Shown here in pieces: positions 5,147 to 57,903 of a DNA stretch of 64,000 bases. How positions within the stretch are numbered: the first letter of the stretch is position 1; each line of letters opens with the position of its first letter. A model generated the notes under the pieces. The model was given only the letters and a program-made list of their open reading frames with translations, ran no database searches and was not told the DNA's origin. Position numbers and translations under genes: made by a program. This DNA is from Spartobacteria bacterium (GTDB lineage Bacteria > Verrucomicrobiota > Verrucomicrobiia > Chthoniobacterales > UBA10450): the NCBI GenBank assembly GCA_003167555.1, contig PMSN01000023.1, forward strand, positions 62,001-126,000. The letters run 5' to 3'.

Positions 5147-5540
5147 TTCATCAATCTCTCCGCGTCACGCCCGCAATGGAAGCGGGCGTTTCCGATCACG
5201 TTTGGAGTATCGACGAAGTGATTGCGCTATTGAACTCGTAATGTGGGGGCGATGCGGTCAGCCTGTTGCGCATGAACAAACCTGAAACAAAAGTGAGGAT
5301 GCCTAGAGGAAGGATGCTTCCACCAGCGCGCATTAAAAAGTCCACGACCCCTGCCAGGTCGGGAAAGTCCGGAACAACACCGGCACGCAAGGGTGCGAAA
5401 CGTGCGGCAGGCACGGTACCCGCGTTTCGGGGTAAAGCTGAGGCCGATAAGTCGAGTGCGCCCCGGCGGCCGGTCAAACATCTTTACATGGGAGTTCCCA
5501 ATTCTGCCAAGCTTTAGCCGACGCACACTGTACCACCACC
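5147..5540 (+). repeat. 394-bp dispersed repeat, copy A (IS1-like transposase tail plus downstream segment)
   Basis: Nearly identical to 24191-24584, with about five base differences, at a constant offset of 19044. The first 95 bp (5147-5241) encode the last residues of an IS1-like transposase (IHQSLRVTPAMEAGV, then ALLNS and stop). The remaining 299 bp hold an open frame of 81-83 codons. Similarity begins and ends abruptly (5147 and 5540), so this is probably the right-hand part of a mobile element moved or left behind twice. Confidence 0.85.
5272..5517 (+). CDS. Small basic proline-rich ORF within the repeat, copy A
   Basis: 81 codons from ATG 5272 (TTG 5266 possible), starting 31 bp after the transposase stop. 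The product would be rich in Lys, Arg, Pro and Ala (RMPRGRMLPPAR, KSTTPARSGKSG), with no recognised domain. The second copy at 24316-24561 stays open. Of the four base differences inside the ORF, three change a residue, so there is no sign of protein-level constraint. A minus-strand ORF also crosses the same bases. Probably a passenger or a non-coding element end. Confidence 0.25.
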   Translation: MNKPETKVRMPRGRMLPPARIKKSTTPARSGKSGTTPARKGAKRAAGTVPAFRGKAEADKSSAPRRPVKHLYMGVPNSAKL

Positions 5541-53483: not shown

Positions 53484-55481
53484 TCAAACCTGCGGTGCTG
53501 CCTTCGCTGCCGCGGCGAGGCCCGTCCACGTGGGCAAGTCCGACAACGCGCCGTCGATGAACAGGTGATGCCAGAGTTGCGTCGCCACGACAGCCACGAG
53601 TCCCATTTCCACCGAGAGACGCGGCAGTGAACCGGCCCGCATTTGGCGAAAGGCTTTCCGCCAGTGGTGCACCGCCCCGACATCGAAGTAGCCCGTGCGC
53701 CGCAGCGAGTCTTCGCTCAAGAGCTGGCCGACAAATGGAGGCTCGGGGTCCATGTGGAAACTGTCCAGCGGAGCGCGAAAGATGACCTTGTGGCGCCGGG
53801 CAATCTCTGGCGGCAGCCAGCGCTCCGCCACGAGGCGCAGCAGATGTTTGTCGCGGAATCCGCGCAGCTTCCAGCGGGGGTGCAGTCTGGCGGTGAAGGC
53901 AAAGACATCCTCATCGAGGAACGGATAGCGCACCTCCACCGAGGAGTGCATCGAGACACGGTCCCCCTTGGCCTGGAGAAGGTGCCCGGCCAGAGTAACG
54001 CGGGCTGCGACCCAGATGCCACGGTTCAGTGGATGCCAGCGCCTGGCACGCTCCAGGTTGAGTCCTAGCTCTGCCCAAGGATGAGTCTTCTCCAGCACTT
54101 CCCGCATCGGCGCGGCATAGAAGCGAAGCTTGGAGAGCCCGAGCAGTCCGTAGGCATCAATCCATGCGTTGGGGCCACCGATGGATTCCTCCACGCCGTG
54201 TCTCATCTCAGGTGGATATTGGGGCACATGATTGAGCCGGAAATACGCGCGTCGCGCCGTGTCGCTCAGCCGCATCCCCGGCACGAGATCCAGAACACCT
54301 AGCACCTTGGCGATCTTATACCAAGGATAGCCAGCCAGCCACTCGTCAGCCCCTTCCCCAGTGAGGACCACCTTCTGCCCGCAGGCATGAACGCGCCGCG
54401 CCAACTGCAGCAAAGCCGCGCACGAGGTATCAATCACCGGCGACTCGGCGGCCTGGATCAGCTCCGGATAAGTCTCCAGCGCGTCGCTGGCGCGGAACAC
54501 CTGCACGATGGGCGGCTTGGTGCCGATATGCCGGGCCGAAAGGGTGGCCGCGCTGAGTTCGTCGAGAGCGGGATCGTCAACGCGAATGGTGTAAGTGTTG
54601 ATCGCCGGACCTTTGAGCTTACAGGCCATGGCCACGATCATGCTCGAATCCAGACCACCCGAGAGATAAGCGCCCACCGGCACGTCGGCCCGTAGCCGCA
54701 TCCCCACCGCCTTTAGCAACACCTGCTCGAACTCATCCACCAGCTTGCGCTGATCTGCTCCCGGATCTTCATCGCCCTCATCCGGGAAGTCCATCTCCCA
54801 GTAAGTGCGCTCGTTGATGACGGGTGCCGCACCGCCTTCGTTCCCCGGATTGATCTGCAGATAATGGCCGGGAGGCAAGAGCCGCACACCTTCAAAACAG
54901 GTAATCGGCCCCGGCATGGCGGTAAACGTAAACATGTGATCAATGCCGCGCCGGTCGGGTTTGGCCGGCACCAGGCCAGAGGCCAGAAGGCCCTTGATTT
55001 CGGAGGCGAACAGGAGCCAGTCCCCTTGTCGCGTCCAGTAAAGCGGACAGATGCCGAAGCGGTCCCGTCCAAGAATCAATTGACGCCGGCGCACGTCCCA
55101 CAAGGCCACGGCGAACTGGCCGCGGAGTCGCTTGAACATGCCTTCCTGATTCTCTTCCCACATGTGTGGAATGATTTCCGTGTCGCAGTGCGTGACCAGG
55201 CGATGTCCTCGCGATGTAAGCTCCGCATGCTTCTCGGGGTAATCGAACAACTCGCCGTTGAAGACCACAAACACGCTCCGGTCTTCATTGGCGACCGGCT
55301 GCTGGCCATCCGCCAGGCCGACAATGCTCAGCCGCCGGGAGGCCAGCGCCAATCCAGGACGGTGGAGGTAACCTTCTTCGTCCGGGCCGCGATGCACCAG
55401 CGCCTGGGCCATCCGTTGGACGATGCCCTCCGGCACCATTCGCAGCCCGGCCAGATCCAGCACACCCGCAATGCCACACAT
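53484..55481 (-). CDS. asnB: Asparagine synthase (glutamine-hydrolysing)
   Basis: 665 residues. N-terminal glutaminase (1-225) starts MCGIAGVLD with the nucleophile Cys2, then HRGPDEEGY, RRLSIVGL, VVFNGELFDY, and RFGICPLYW. C-terminal synthetase with the P-loop-like pyrophosphatase motif YLSGGLDSSMIVA, EGADEWLAGYPWYK and VRYPFLDEDVF. It makes Asn from Asp, Gln and ATP, or acts as an amidotransferase in other pathways. Ribosome site AAAGGA before ATG 55481. It converges on the TPR gene and lies 2.4 kb from the polyketide synthase. Confidence 0.92.
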   Translation of the reverse strand: MCGIAGVLDLAGLRMVPEGIVQRMAQALVHRGPDEEGYLHRPGLALASRRLSIVGLADGQQPVANEDRSVFVVFNGELFDYPEKHAELTSRGHRLVTHCDTEIIPHMWEENQEGMFKRLRGQFAVALWDVRRRQLILGRDRFGICPLYWTRQGDWLLFASEIKGLLASGLVPAKPDRRGIDHMFTFTAMPGPITCFEGVRLLPPGHYLQINPGNEGGAAPVINERTYWEMDFPDEGDEDPGADQRKLVDEFEQVLLKAVGMRLRADVPVGAYLSGGLDSSMIVAMACKLKGPAINTYTIRVDDPALDELSAATLSARHIGTKPPIVQVFRASDALETYPELIQAAESPVIDTSCAALLQLARRVHACGQKVVLTGEGADEWLAGYPWYKIAKVLGVLDLVPGMRLSDTARRAYFRLNHVPQYPPEMRHGVEESIGGPNAWIDAYGLLGLSKLRFYAAPMREVLEKTHPWAELGLNLERARRWHPLNRGIWVAARVTLAGHLLQAKGDRVSMHSSVEVRYPFLDEDVFAFTARLHPRWKLRGFRDKHLLRLVAERWLPPEIARRHKVIFRAPLDSFHMDPEPPFVGQLLSEDSLRRTGYFDVGAVHHWRKAFRQMRAGSLPRLSVEMGLVAVVATQLWHHLFIDGALSDLPTWTGLAAAAKAAPQV

Positions 55482-55735
55482 TTGGCAATCCTTTAGTTCA
55501 GACTACCCGCCAGGCAATCGTTTTCTCAAAACATTCCCCGTTGCTCGAAAAGCAGCTAAGGACGAGTAGAAACAGGTAGCGTCCTAATTTGGTTTTTTTG
55601 AGCAGGGGAAAATCGATGTGCTCAAGAAAGATCGAGATTCACAGACTGATCCCAGTTCTGCTGACCCTCTCTGATCCGCTGCGCAGAGGATTACCTCGCA
55701 TGAGATGTCAATCTTGCGGCGATGAAGCTGGCCAA
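55482..55735. other. Gene-free stretch before the repeat tract
   Basis: No supported gene. An ORF from 55589 on the plus strand runs into the 21-bp repeat and takes its repetitive residues from it. Confidence 0.35.
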
Positions 55736-56045
55736 ACAGGGCTGCTCGGTCATTTTGCAGCGCTGTTTCGCGATTTTGACGCGCGACATTGCGACCAAGC
55801 TTACCTGTTTGGTTTCAAAGCAGCGCTGTTTCGTCGTTTTACAGCGCTGCTCCATCGCTTTGCTTACATGTTTCGTCACTCAACATCGCTGTTTCGTCGC
55901 TTCGCTTACATGTTTAGCCGCTAAACAGCGCTGCTTGGTTGTTGTACCGCGCAGCTAAATCACCAAGCATCCATGTTTCGTCATGAAACAGCGCTGCGTC
56001 GCAGCGTTGTAACACGCTTGGGCGCAAAACAGCGCTGCTTAGCCA
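55736..56045. repeat. Degenerate 21-bp-period tandem repeat tract
   Basis: The palindrome CAGCGCTG (or CATCGCTG once) starts at 55758, 55821, 55842, 55884, 55926 and 55989. All of these are congruent modulo 21. A further copy at 56030 is one base out of phase. Read on the minus strand, units of seven codons alternate between a KQRC-like form and a KHVS-like form, with at least two stop codons in the tract. Roughly 13 units are visible. It is not a CRISPR: units are contiguous, imperfect and have no spacers. Confidence 0.75.
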
Positions 56046-56092
56046 CCGAACAACCTTACAAAATCACTGCACCAACCAGCGAAACGCGGTAT

Positions 56093-56305
56093 TTAATACT
56101 CGGCTTTGGTGAACTCGAACGTTTCCGTGATTGCGCCCGCTCCATCGAGCACGCGAATCTCGCACCGGCCAAACTTCGCTCGCTCCTTTCCGTAACCAAG
56201 CACCTGCTCTTTGGCGACGTTACCCACCCAGAACGGTTCCACCGCCGGCCCTTCGAAACACTGCCAGCCATTCCGGTATGGTCGAATTTCAATGATCCTG
56301 CTCAT
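56093..56305 (-). CDS. DUF2188-like small protein
   Basis: 70 residues. The pattern MSRIIEIRPYRNGWQCFEGPAVEPFWVG, given here as positions 1-28, followed by EQVLGYGKERAK and GEIRVLD-like CEIRVLDGAGAI, matches short Verrucomicrobial proteins of the DUF2188 kind (a small fold with a conserved N-terminal strand). Its role is unknown. It lies between the repeat tract and the HEPN gene, on the opposite strand. Confidence 0.6.
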   Translation of the reverse strand: MSRIIEIRPYRNGWQCFEGPAVEPFWVGNVAKEQVLGYGKERAKFGRCEIRVLDGAGAITETFEFTKAEY

Positions 56306-56428
56306 GTCTGCATGCTACGTGCCGTCCACGTTCCTTGTCCAAAATCGAATCCACGCGCGACAAATGAAAGCTTTCGGCCTATCGAGCTTGTCCTGAAAAC
56401 AAAGACGAAGTATTTTCCGCGCAGTAAC

Positions 56429-57001
56429 ATGTTAGTGCGCATCAAAGTCGCGCGAACATTCGCGCCGCATGTGCTGCTTCTCAGAGCGGCGTCCAGAGCG
56501 CTCGAATCCGCTAGGGCAAAGACAGAAGGTCGCTGGTGGGATTGGCTGGCTTCTATCATTTACTCTTCGCTGAGCATCGAAGCGATCGGGAACACGTATG
56601 GCGAGACGTTCATCGCTCAATGGAAGAAATTTAAGTCCTCGCCCCCGCTTAAAAAGATACGGTTGGTCGCCGAGCACTGTAAGCTTCAGCCGGACTTTGG
56701 CTCAGAGCCGTGGTCCATCGTCCCCGAATTAATCAGTTTCAGAAATGAGATCGCCCACCCAAAACTAAAGAAGCTGAGTGTGAACAAGACGTACTCACAA
56801 GAGGAGTACGAGAAATATCTTTACTCCAAACCGGAATCGAAGCTCGAGTCGAAGGTGACGGAGCACTTTGCGCAGCGAAGCCAAGACTGCATCAACGAGA
56901 TCCTTCGGCTTTTAGGGCGGAGCCTTCCGGAAGATGCTGTTATGCAAATTGAGACTGAGTCATGGGAGGGCGGCGCAGAGATCGATCAATCGCAGCAATA
57001 A
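56429..57001 (+). CDS. HEPN-like protein
   Basis: 190 residues from ATG 56429; the longer frame from 55973 only adds repeat-derived and other non-conserved residues. Helical protein with SSLSIEAIGNTYGETFIAQW and the HEPN motif R-x4-H: Arg105-Asn-Glu-Ile-Ala-His110 in SFRNEIAHPKL. HEPN proteins are often metal-independent RNases in toxin-antitoxin, CRISPR or restriction systems. A DNA methyltransferase fragment begins 15 bp later, so it may belong to the lost restriction locus. Confidence 0.65.
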   Translation: MLVRIKVARTFAPHVLLLRAASRALESARAKTEGRWWDWLASIIYSSLSIEAIGNTYGETFIAQWKKFKSSPPLKKIRLVAEHCKLQPDFGSEPWSIVPELISFRNEIAHPKLKKLSVNKTYSQEEYEKYLYSKPESKLESKVTEHFAQRSQDCINEILRLLGRSLPEDAVMQIETESWEGGAEIDQSQQ

Positions 57002-57016
57002 GGTTTTTCACGGCCA

Positions 57017-57205
57017 TTGAACCAGCTTTACTACGGCGATAATTTGCAGGTGCTGCGCGAGCACATTGCGGATGAGTCGGTTGATCTGATTTATCTCAAT
57101 CCGCCGTTTAACTCGAAGCGCGATTACAACCTGCTCGTCAAGGCAACCGAAAGATATTGGAGCGGCCGAACATCAAAGCAACTGATGGTTAATGCTGGAT
57201 CTTAA
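57017..57205 (+). pseudogene. DNA methyltransferase, N-terminal fragment
   Basis: 62 codons from TTG 57017. Contains LYYGDNLQVLREHIADESVDLIYLNPPFNSKRDYNLL, with the catalytic NPPF motif (D/N-P-P-F/Y) at 57100-57112, as in beta-class N4/N6 methyltransferases. It stops at 57205, and the rest of the enzyme (SAM-binding motif, target domain) is missing. Confidence 0.75.
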
Positions 57206-57230
57206 CGCCTTAGCCGGGTAGATCCGGCGC

Positions 57231-57563
57231 GTGGCGCTTAGCGATCTTCCTAATTTCATTCGCAAAAACTACGCGGTTCACGAATGGCGACATGCATCCG
57301 CCGTGTTACGAACCGATTTTCGTGCGGAGTGGGACGACATCGTCGCGGTGCTAAATGCCTTTCGTCTTTTGAAAAGTCACATCAGCGTCGGAGGGGGCGG
57401 CAAGAGCAAGGTATCTGGATCGATTGATAGCGAATTTACAAAGCGCGGTTGGCGCGAACGGAAATTCGAAACACAAATTCGAGTCGATGAGAGCGTGATC
57501 GACAGTCCCACTCACAAGGTCGCGACGTGCACTTTTTTTTCGCGCGCGAGGTTTGGCGTGTAA
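57231..57563 (+). pseudogene. BglII-like restriction endonuclease fragment
   Basis: From GTG 57231: LPNFIRKNYAVHEWRHASAVLRTDFRAEWDDIVAVLNAFRL (positions 5-45), then GWRERKFETQIRVDE and DSPTHKV. This is the N-terminal part of BglII-type enzymes. After HKV the frame reads unrelated residues, so the catalytic Asp, Glu and Gln of the core are gone. Partner of the methyltransferase fragment upstream. Confidence 0.7.
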
Positions 57564-57667
57564 TCGAGGTCGCATTCCTCACTCGGGTTTTCCAGATTCA
57601 TCGTCGGCGGAATCACGGAATCTCGAATGGCAAGCGCGCACGCGGCCATTTCCACGGCACCGGCGCC

Positions 57668-57736
57668 GAGCGCCAAAATTTAACGATGCGCATGTCGATG
57701 CGCCGCTTCACACGGCTGACGAATGGATTCTCAAAG
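57668..57736 (+). pseudogene. IS1-like transposase relic
   Basis: 23 codons of the motif [23 protein letters not shown], equivalent to residues in the 23912-24285 relic. After FSK the similarity ends (GFTQLHWAGAS). Probably the insertion that broke the restriction gene, then itself decayed. Confidence 0.7.
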
Positions 57737-57903
57737 GGTTTCACCCAATTGCATTGGGCGGGCGCATCATGTAATTTTGATTCTCTCAAACGCTCCAAAA
57801 TGAGCAGCGGAGATCTCTTCATGCACGGAACCGTGAACCTATTTTCCGATAAAATCATTCGCCTTCGAATACTCCGTTCCGTTGCTCTGTCTCATTGCCT
57901 GCT

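Follow-up and report, generated by a model that had tools for sequence, protein, structure and literature searches.

The question raised by this locus is why a short intergenic tract should carry much the same palindrome again and again at a spacing of exactly 21 bp, a distance that corresponds both to seven codons and to two turns of the DNA helix. The tract lies between genes in a window of 64,000 nucleotides from a Verrucomicrobiota bacterium, by which is meant the whole stretch of DNA that was analysed. A reading of the sequence alone had offered three explanations for it: a structure at the level of the DNA, an array of binding sites, or a heptad-repeat gene that has decayed. The answer preferred here, with a probability of about two in three, is that the array is a degenerate, non-coding minisatellite, probably without function.

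Extent and order of the 21-bp array

The array occupies positions 55731-56045 and comprises about 14 copies, namely 13 units of 21 bp in one register and a further unit shifted by 1 bp, and its parts are as follows.

55731..56003, no strand assigned: tandem run of 13 units of 21 bp, all in register, with a consensus close to RCYAARCAGCGCTGYTTCGTC (seen by autocorrelation, by the unit profile and in pairwise identities)
55758, 55821, 55842, 55884, 55926 and 55989: in-register palindromes CAGCGCTG or CATCGCTG
56024..56045, no strand assigned: final recognisable unit, shifted by 1 bp (profile score 21.2 at 56024, register 20)
56030: seventh palindrome, one base off the 21-bp register
55794, 55857, 55899 and 55962: B-type units (CTTACATG-like), at spacings of 63, 42 and 63 bp
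55815..56003, no strand assigned: section with the clearest higher-order arrangement, at a lag of 105 bp or five units (identity 0.70 at that lag)

Six of the seven palindromes share one register and span 231 bp, exactly as the sequence-only reading had described them. The periodicity extends well beyond them. Autocorrelation over 55731-56045 is 0.469, 0.458, 0.516 and 0.481 at lags of 21, 42, 63 and 84 bp, set against a mean over these lags of 0.255 (sd 0.014, maximum 0.306) in 1000 dinucleotide shuffles, the comparison with shuffled sequence that the earlier reading had called for. That reading would have been abandoned if the 21-bp signal had fallen to background outside the palindromes; with the palindromes masked, identity at lags 21-84 still stands at 0.42-0.48. 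A leave-one-out unit profile places unit starts from 55731 to 55983 and at 56024, with none beyond, and in the 20 bases ahead of the final unit (56004-56023) the unit pattern is eroded beyond recognition. The 21-bp repeat is thus real and the array worn: the units are about 50% identical to one another, and the core is lost in four of the 13. Their constant length and head-to-tail arrangement place them among tandem repeats of the 10-100 bp minisatellite class.

Two kinds of unit had been thought to alternate strictly, giving a 42-bp super-period, and this part of the earlier description did not hold. The B-type units are unevenly spaced, identity at lag 42 over the whole tract is no higher than at lags 21 and 84, and the strongest higher-order lag is 105 bp, with 0.625 over the whole tract and the higher value given above within 55815-56003.

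The surrounding insert and the coding capacity of the tract

The array sits in an insert between an asparagine-synthase-like gene and a polyketide synthase gene, the latter represented in the closest sister genome (G002) by an orthologous ORF of 2660 aa with polyketide-synthase-like sequence.

53484..55481, minus strand: asparagine-synthase-like gene flanking the insert (PF00733, E 7.6e-71)
55527..57786, no strand assigned: lineage-specific insert that holds the array, between the asparagine-synthase-like and polyketide-synthase genes (blastn against four congeners)
56093..56305, minus strand: 70-aa ORF adjoining the array; its homologues elsewhere in the genus are not accompanied by an array
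56432..57001, plus strand: 189-aa ORF, at most weakly Swt1-type HEPN-like (PF18731, E 0.15, below the cut-off)
57017..57205, plus strand: N-terminal piece of a type II DNA methyltransferase, matching PADLOC MTase_II along 42 residues (E 5.1e-7)
57231..57563, plus strand: piece of a BglII-family restriction endonuclease, matching positions 1-74 of the 163 in the PF09195 profile (E 5.6e-9)

In three congeners the orthologous site is a short spacer of a few hundred bases with no array. The sister G002, whose synthase is 96% identical at the protein level, has another insert there, about 2.1 kb long (L011 10260-12390), with other ORFs and two short stretches related to the insert of the window. 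On these comparisons the spacer between the two synthase genes is a variable, decaying insertion site. A 32-bp stretch at the insert edge (55529-55560) is also found in G002 (L011 12360-12391), in the opposite orientation relative to the flanking gene. The 189-aa ORF has one distant relative within the genus, and no replication, partition or regulator gene was recognised among the searched ORFs of the insert. A connection between AGCGCT sites and the BglII-type remnant was considered and set aside, as AGCGCT, with 172 occurrences in the genome sample, is near its Markov expectation of 195 and so lends it no support.

Since its period is divisible by three, the array could be what is left of a gene for a seven-residue protein repeat, later interrupted by stops and a shift of frame. 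None of the six frames runs through the 13 units without a stop. The KQRC-like heptads noticed in a minus frame do exist there, with two stops, and are not peculiar to it: plus frame 1 gives AKQRCFV-type heptads with a single stop in 13 units and is open for 78 codons (55722-55958). The strand symmetry of the consensus unit accounts for heptads of this kind in both orientations. What speaks most for a former gene is that the synonymous share of single differences is highest in plus frame 1 (0.38, against 0.18-0.33 in the other frames). In addition, many of the 21-bp arrays that one and the same pattern picks out in other genomes are coding heptads. Against this, the third-position signal is not significant (P 0.22), and plus frame 1 scores 0.029 per codon for codon usage, where true genes score 0.229 +/- 0.124 and off-frame readings -0.048 +/- 0.169. 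The best score, 0.136, belongs to a minus frame with three stops, the scores not being decisive between gene and non-gene, and no frame of the tract is both open and gene-like in its codon usage. Protein searches with plus frame 1 gave no credible relative in phages, plasmids or viral contigs, and there was no Pfam match; the best plasmid match, to an unannotated stretch at the end of a Stanieria plasmid (49 aa, 44.9%, E 5e-3), was not regarded as credible. Moreover, a coding heptad would not be expected to show the dyad symmetry described below. In the absence of any convincing coding signal, a decayed heptad-repeat gene is an improbable source for the tract.

Dyad symmetry, binding and folding

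The consensus unit is a dyad centred between CAGC and GCTG, and this strand symmetry favours the view, already put forward from the sequence, that the repeat belongs to the DNA level. At the palindrome axis, unit-to-unit identity is 10.46 of 20 when one unit is inverted and 10.92 of 20 in direct comparison, with 2-7 at other axes; for the 12 flank bases beyond the 8-bp core the matches are 5.45 inverted and 5.81 direct, about 3 being expected. The consensus contains a perfect palindrome of 14 bp, for which P is about 0.001 in a random 21-mer of the same composition, in a test picked post hoc when the palindromes had already been seen. No single unit has all 14 palindrome bases together, and columns 5 and 14 hold the non-complementary pairs A.C or G.T in 12 of the 14 units. 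Pairing of the arms beyond the core is 0.440 within units and 0.452 when arms are re-dealt among units, that is, there is no gain, and no compensatory pairing was found in the flank columns of the 14 units. Within the core, arm pairing reaches 0.786 compared with 0.639 re-dealt (P 0.001), an excess that may simply reflect the differing cores of A and B units. In-place inversion of units was also tested and gained no support: the remaining flank columns do not follow the split at columns 5 and 14 (P 0.31, or 0.04 when the core is counted in).

A dyad consensus whose inverted identity equals its direct identity, repeated in exact 21-bp phase, is what one would look for in a helically phased binding array, in which a dimeric protein on the dyad AARCAGCGCTGYTT would occupy one face of the DNA at two-turn spacing and bind cooperatively, as in operator, iteron and centromere arrays. 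Iterons of 17-22 bp are known in which cooperativity varies with helical phase (PMC4980987), and plasmid iterons resemble the array in that both consist of helically phased direct repeats about 20 bp long; an array of similar phase and identical core also exists at another locus, in Verrucomicrobiaceae. The array differs from iterons in the number and state of its units, 14 and worn here against 3-7 and conserved there, and no replication-initiator gene was recognised nearby among the searched ORFs of the insert. The losses of the core and the non-complementary columns also speak against a binding array. The suggestion of such an array is possible in principle and finds no positive support, given that no cognate gene was recognised, that relatives lack the array at this locus and that the genome holds a single copy; it is the main rival of the minisatellite reading, and on balance unlikely.

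Folding z-scores of -6.6 for one strand and -5.0 for the other when dinucleotide shuffles are the reference, and of -4.0 against column-permuted arrays, could be taken as a sign of a structured RNA or a REP-like hairpin acting at the RNA level as a terminator or stabiliser. However, any tandem array of palindromes should fold strongly on both strands, and the flanks show no compensatory pairing. In Rfam no match came near its threshold, the top one scoring 18.1 bits where the gathering score is 110.5, and terminator-like sites are no commoner than in shuffles. REP and BIME elements share with the array imperfect palindromes of about 20 bp in intergenic positions; REPs are high-copy elements (PMC3733652), whereas a search of the genome gave one match, the array itself, and no dispersed copies. 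An RNA-level element is accordingly very unlikely.

Look-alike arrays and the origin of the tract

The unit was sought in other genomes, as had been proposed. No second copy was found in the genome itself, and in a 369-kb genome sample a search for 21-bp signals independent of sequence returned a Pro-rich coding repeat as the sole comparable case. A coding repeat of 63 bp, SPGITKPGTTPGQSPTVAQTP-like, was noted in an ORF of 931 aa (L081 9738-12533), and the same genome as the array has, around position 11161 of L087 (contig C21), a strong short-period repeat with lags of 12, 18, 24 and 36, which outscores the array at other lags. No related array was found by DNA search in 57 relatives, by pattern across the order, or in class and phylum samples, where the array-like matches L061 and L063 proved to be coding heptads; a DNA search of phages and plasmids with the tract likewise gave no credible relative. 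More worn relatives could escape the pattern searches because these demand near-exact adjacent cores. A sequence model built from the four 42-bp B-A pairs and run on ten sequence sources gave, outside the window, one short match (L032, 18.2 bits), all others lying near noise.

When a collection of 84,980 species genomes was scanned with the pattern CAGCGCTGYTT-N10-CAGCGCTG, 34 stretches came back. Clear arrays of 21-bp period make up two of these, L016 from a Verrucomicrobiaceae MAG and L046 from Gordonia; two others, L045 and L038, have mild lag-21 signals. The array in Gordonia sp. OPL2 (L046, reverse strand, 5265-5474) is nearly uniform (SGCGCTGTTTCGGT), with about ten units, and is young, its units being identical at 18.6 of 20 positions with little dyad symmetry outside the core. 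The Verrucomicrobiaceae look-alike proved to be present at the same place in two more of the 68 genomes of that family, upstream of queA, as recognised from the sequence of that gene.

L016 3440-3810: degenerate 21-bp CAGCGCTG array upstream of queA, about 15-16 units
L100 1305-1577: the same, about 13 units
L101 1228-1332: the same, about 5 units

The queA array is like that of the window in its 21-bp period, CAGCGCTG core, intergenic position, degeneracy and inverted similarity at the core axis (10.49 of 20 at its own axis in L016, mostly within the core). It differs in its locus and flanks and in being kept in place across three genomes. Since the search was keyed to the core, the comparison cannot tell whether the two share an origin. 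Variation in unit number between genomes is seen for the queA look-alike only, the window array being known from one genome, and corresponds to the copy-number behaviour of a minisatellite.

For the array of the window, the minisatellite reading is supported by the graded decay and block structure, the single locus, the absence from relatives, the lack of compensatory pairing in the flanks and the copy-number variation at queA. The array would have begun as a near-palindromic segment of roughly 20 bp, with the core CAGCGCTG, that was duplicated in tandem many times through replication slippage or unequal exchange, including duplications of multi-unit blocks. It would have grown in a variable intergenic insert that also bears restriction-modification fragments, and later substitutions and a 1-bp shift would have eroded it. 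On such a course the exact 21-bp phase would be a trace of tandem duplication for which selection is not needed, and the repeated palindromes would be one palindrome copied; both the slippage and the absence of a present function are what we infer. Prokaryotic non-coding satellites found once per genome are known and have been ascribed to replication anomalies (PMC6749651), and such minisatellites or VNTRs share with the array head-to-tail units of constant length, an intergenic position and a single locus. The array differs from typical examples in being more decayed and in having a dyad as its consensus unit. Template-switch mutation is known to concentrate at quasipalindromes (PMC7202029) and may add to such arrays. 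Counting against a minisatellite are the length of the consensus palindrome, greater than a random 21-mer gives, a period of two helical turns, as a binding array would show, and the paired arms of the core.

There is also a more speculative view, in which phased dyads of about 20 bp with the CAGCGCTG core, spaced at exactly 21 bp, would be a recurrent and overlooked intergenic element of the Verrucomicrobiota, bound on one face by a putative dimeric nucleoid or regulatory protein. Its candidate loci are the site beside the asparagine-synthase gene in the window and that upstream of queA in Verrucomicrobiaceae; the literature search found nothing specific on 21-bp arrays, and the idea is a long shot. 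If the phased dyads were bound sites, they would point to a new array-binding protein in the Verrucomicrobiota. Should it be no more than a minisatellite, the array neatly shows how palindromes in tandem can pass for a heptad-repeat gene and for a binding array alike, and it illustrates a variable spot next to a gene for a polyketide synthase.
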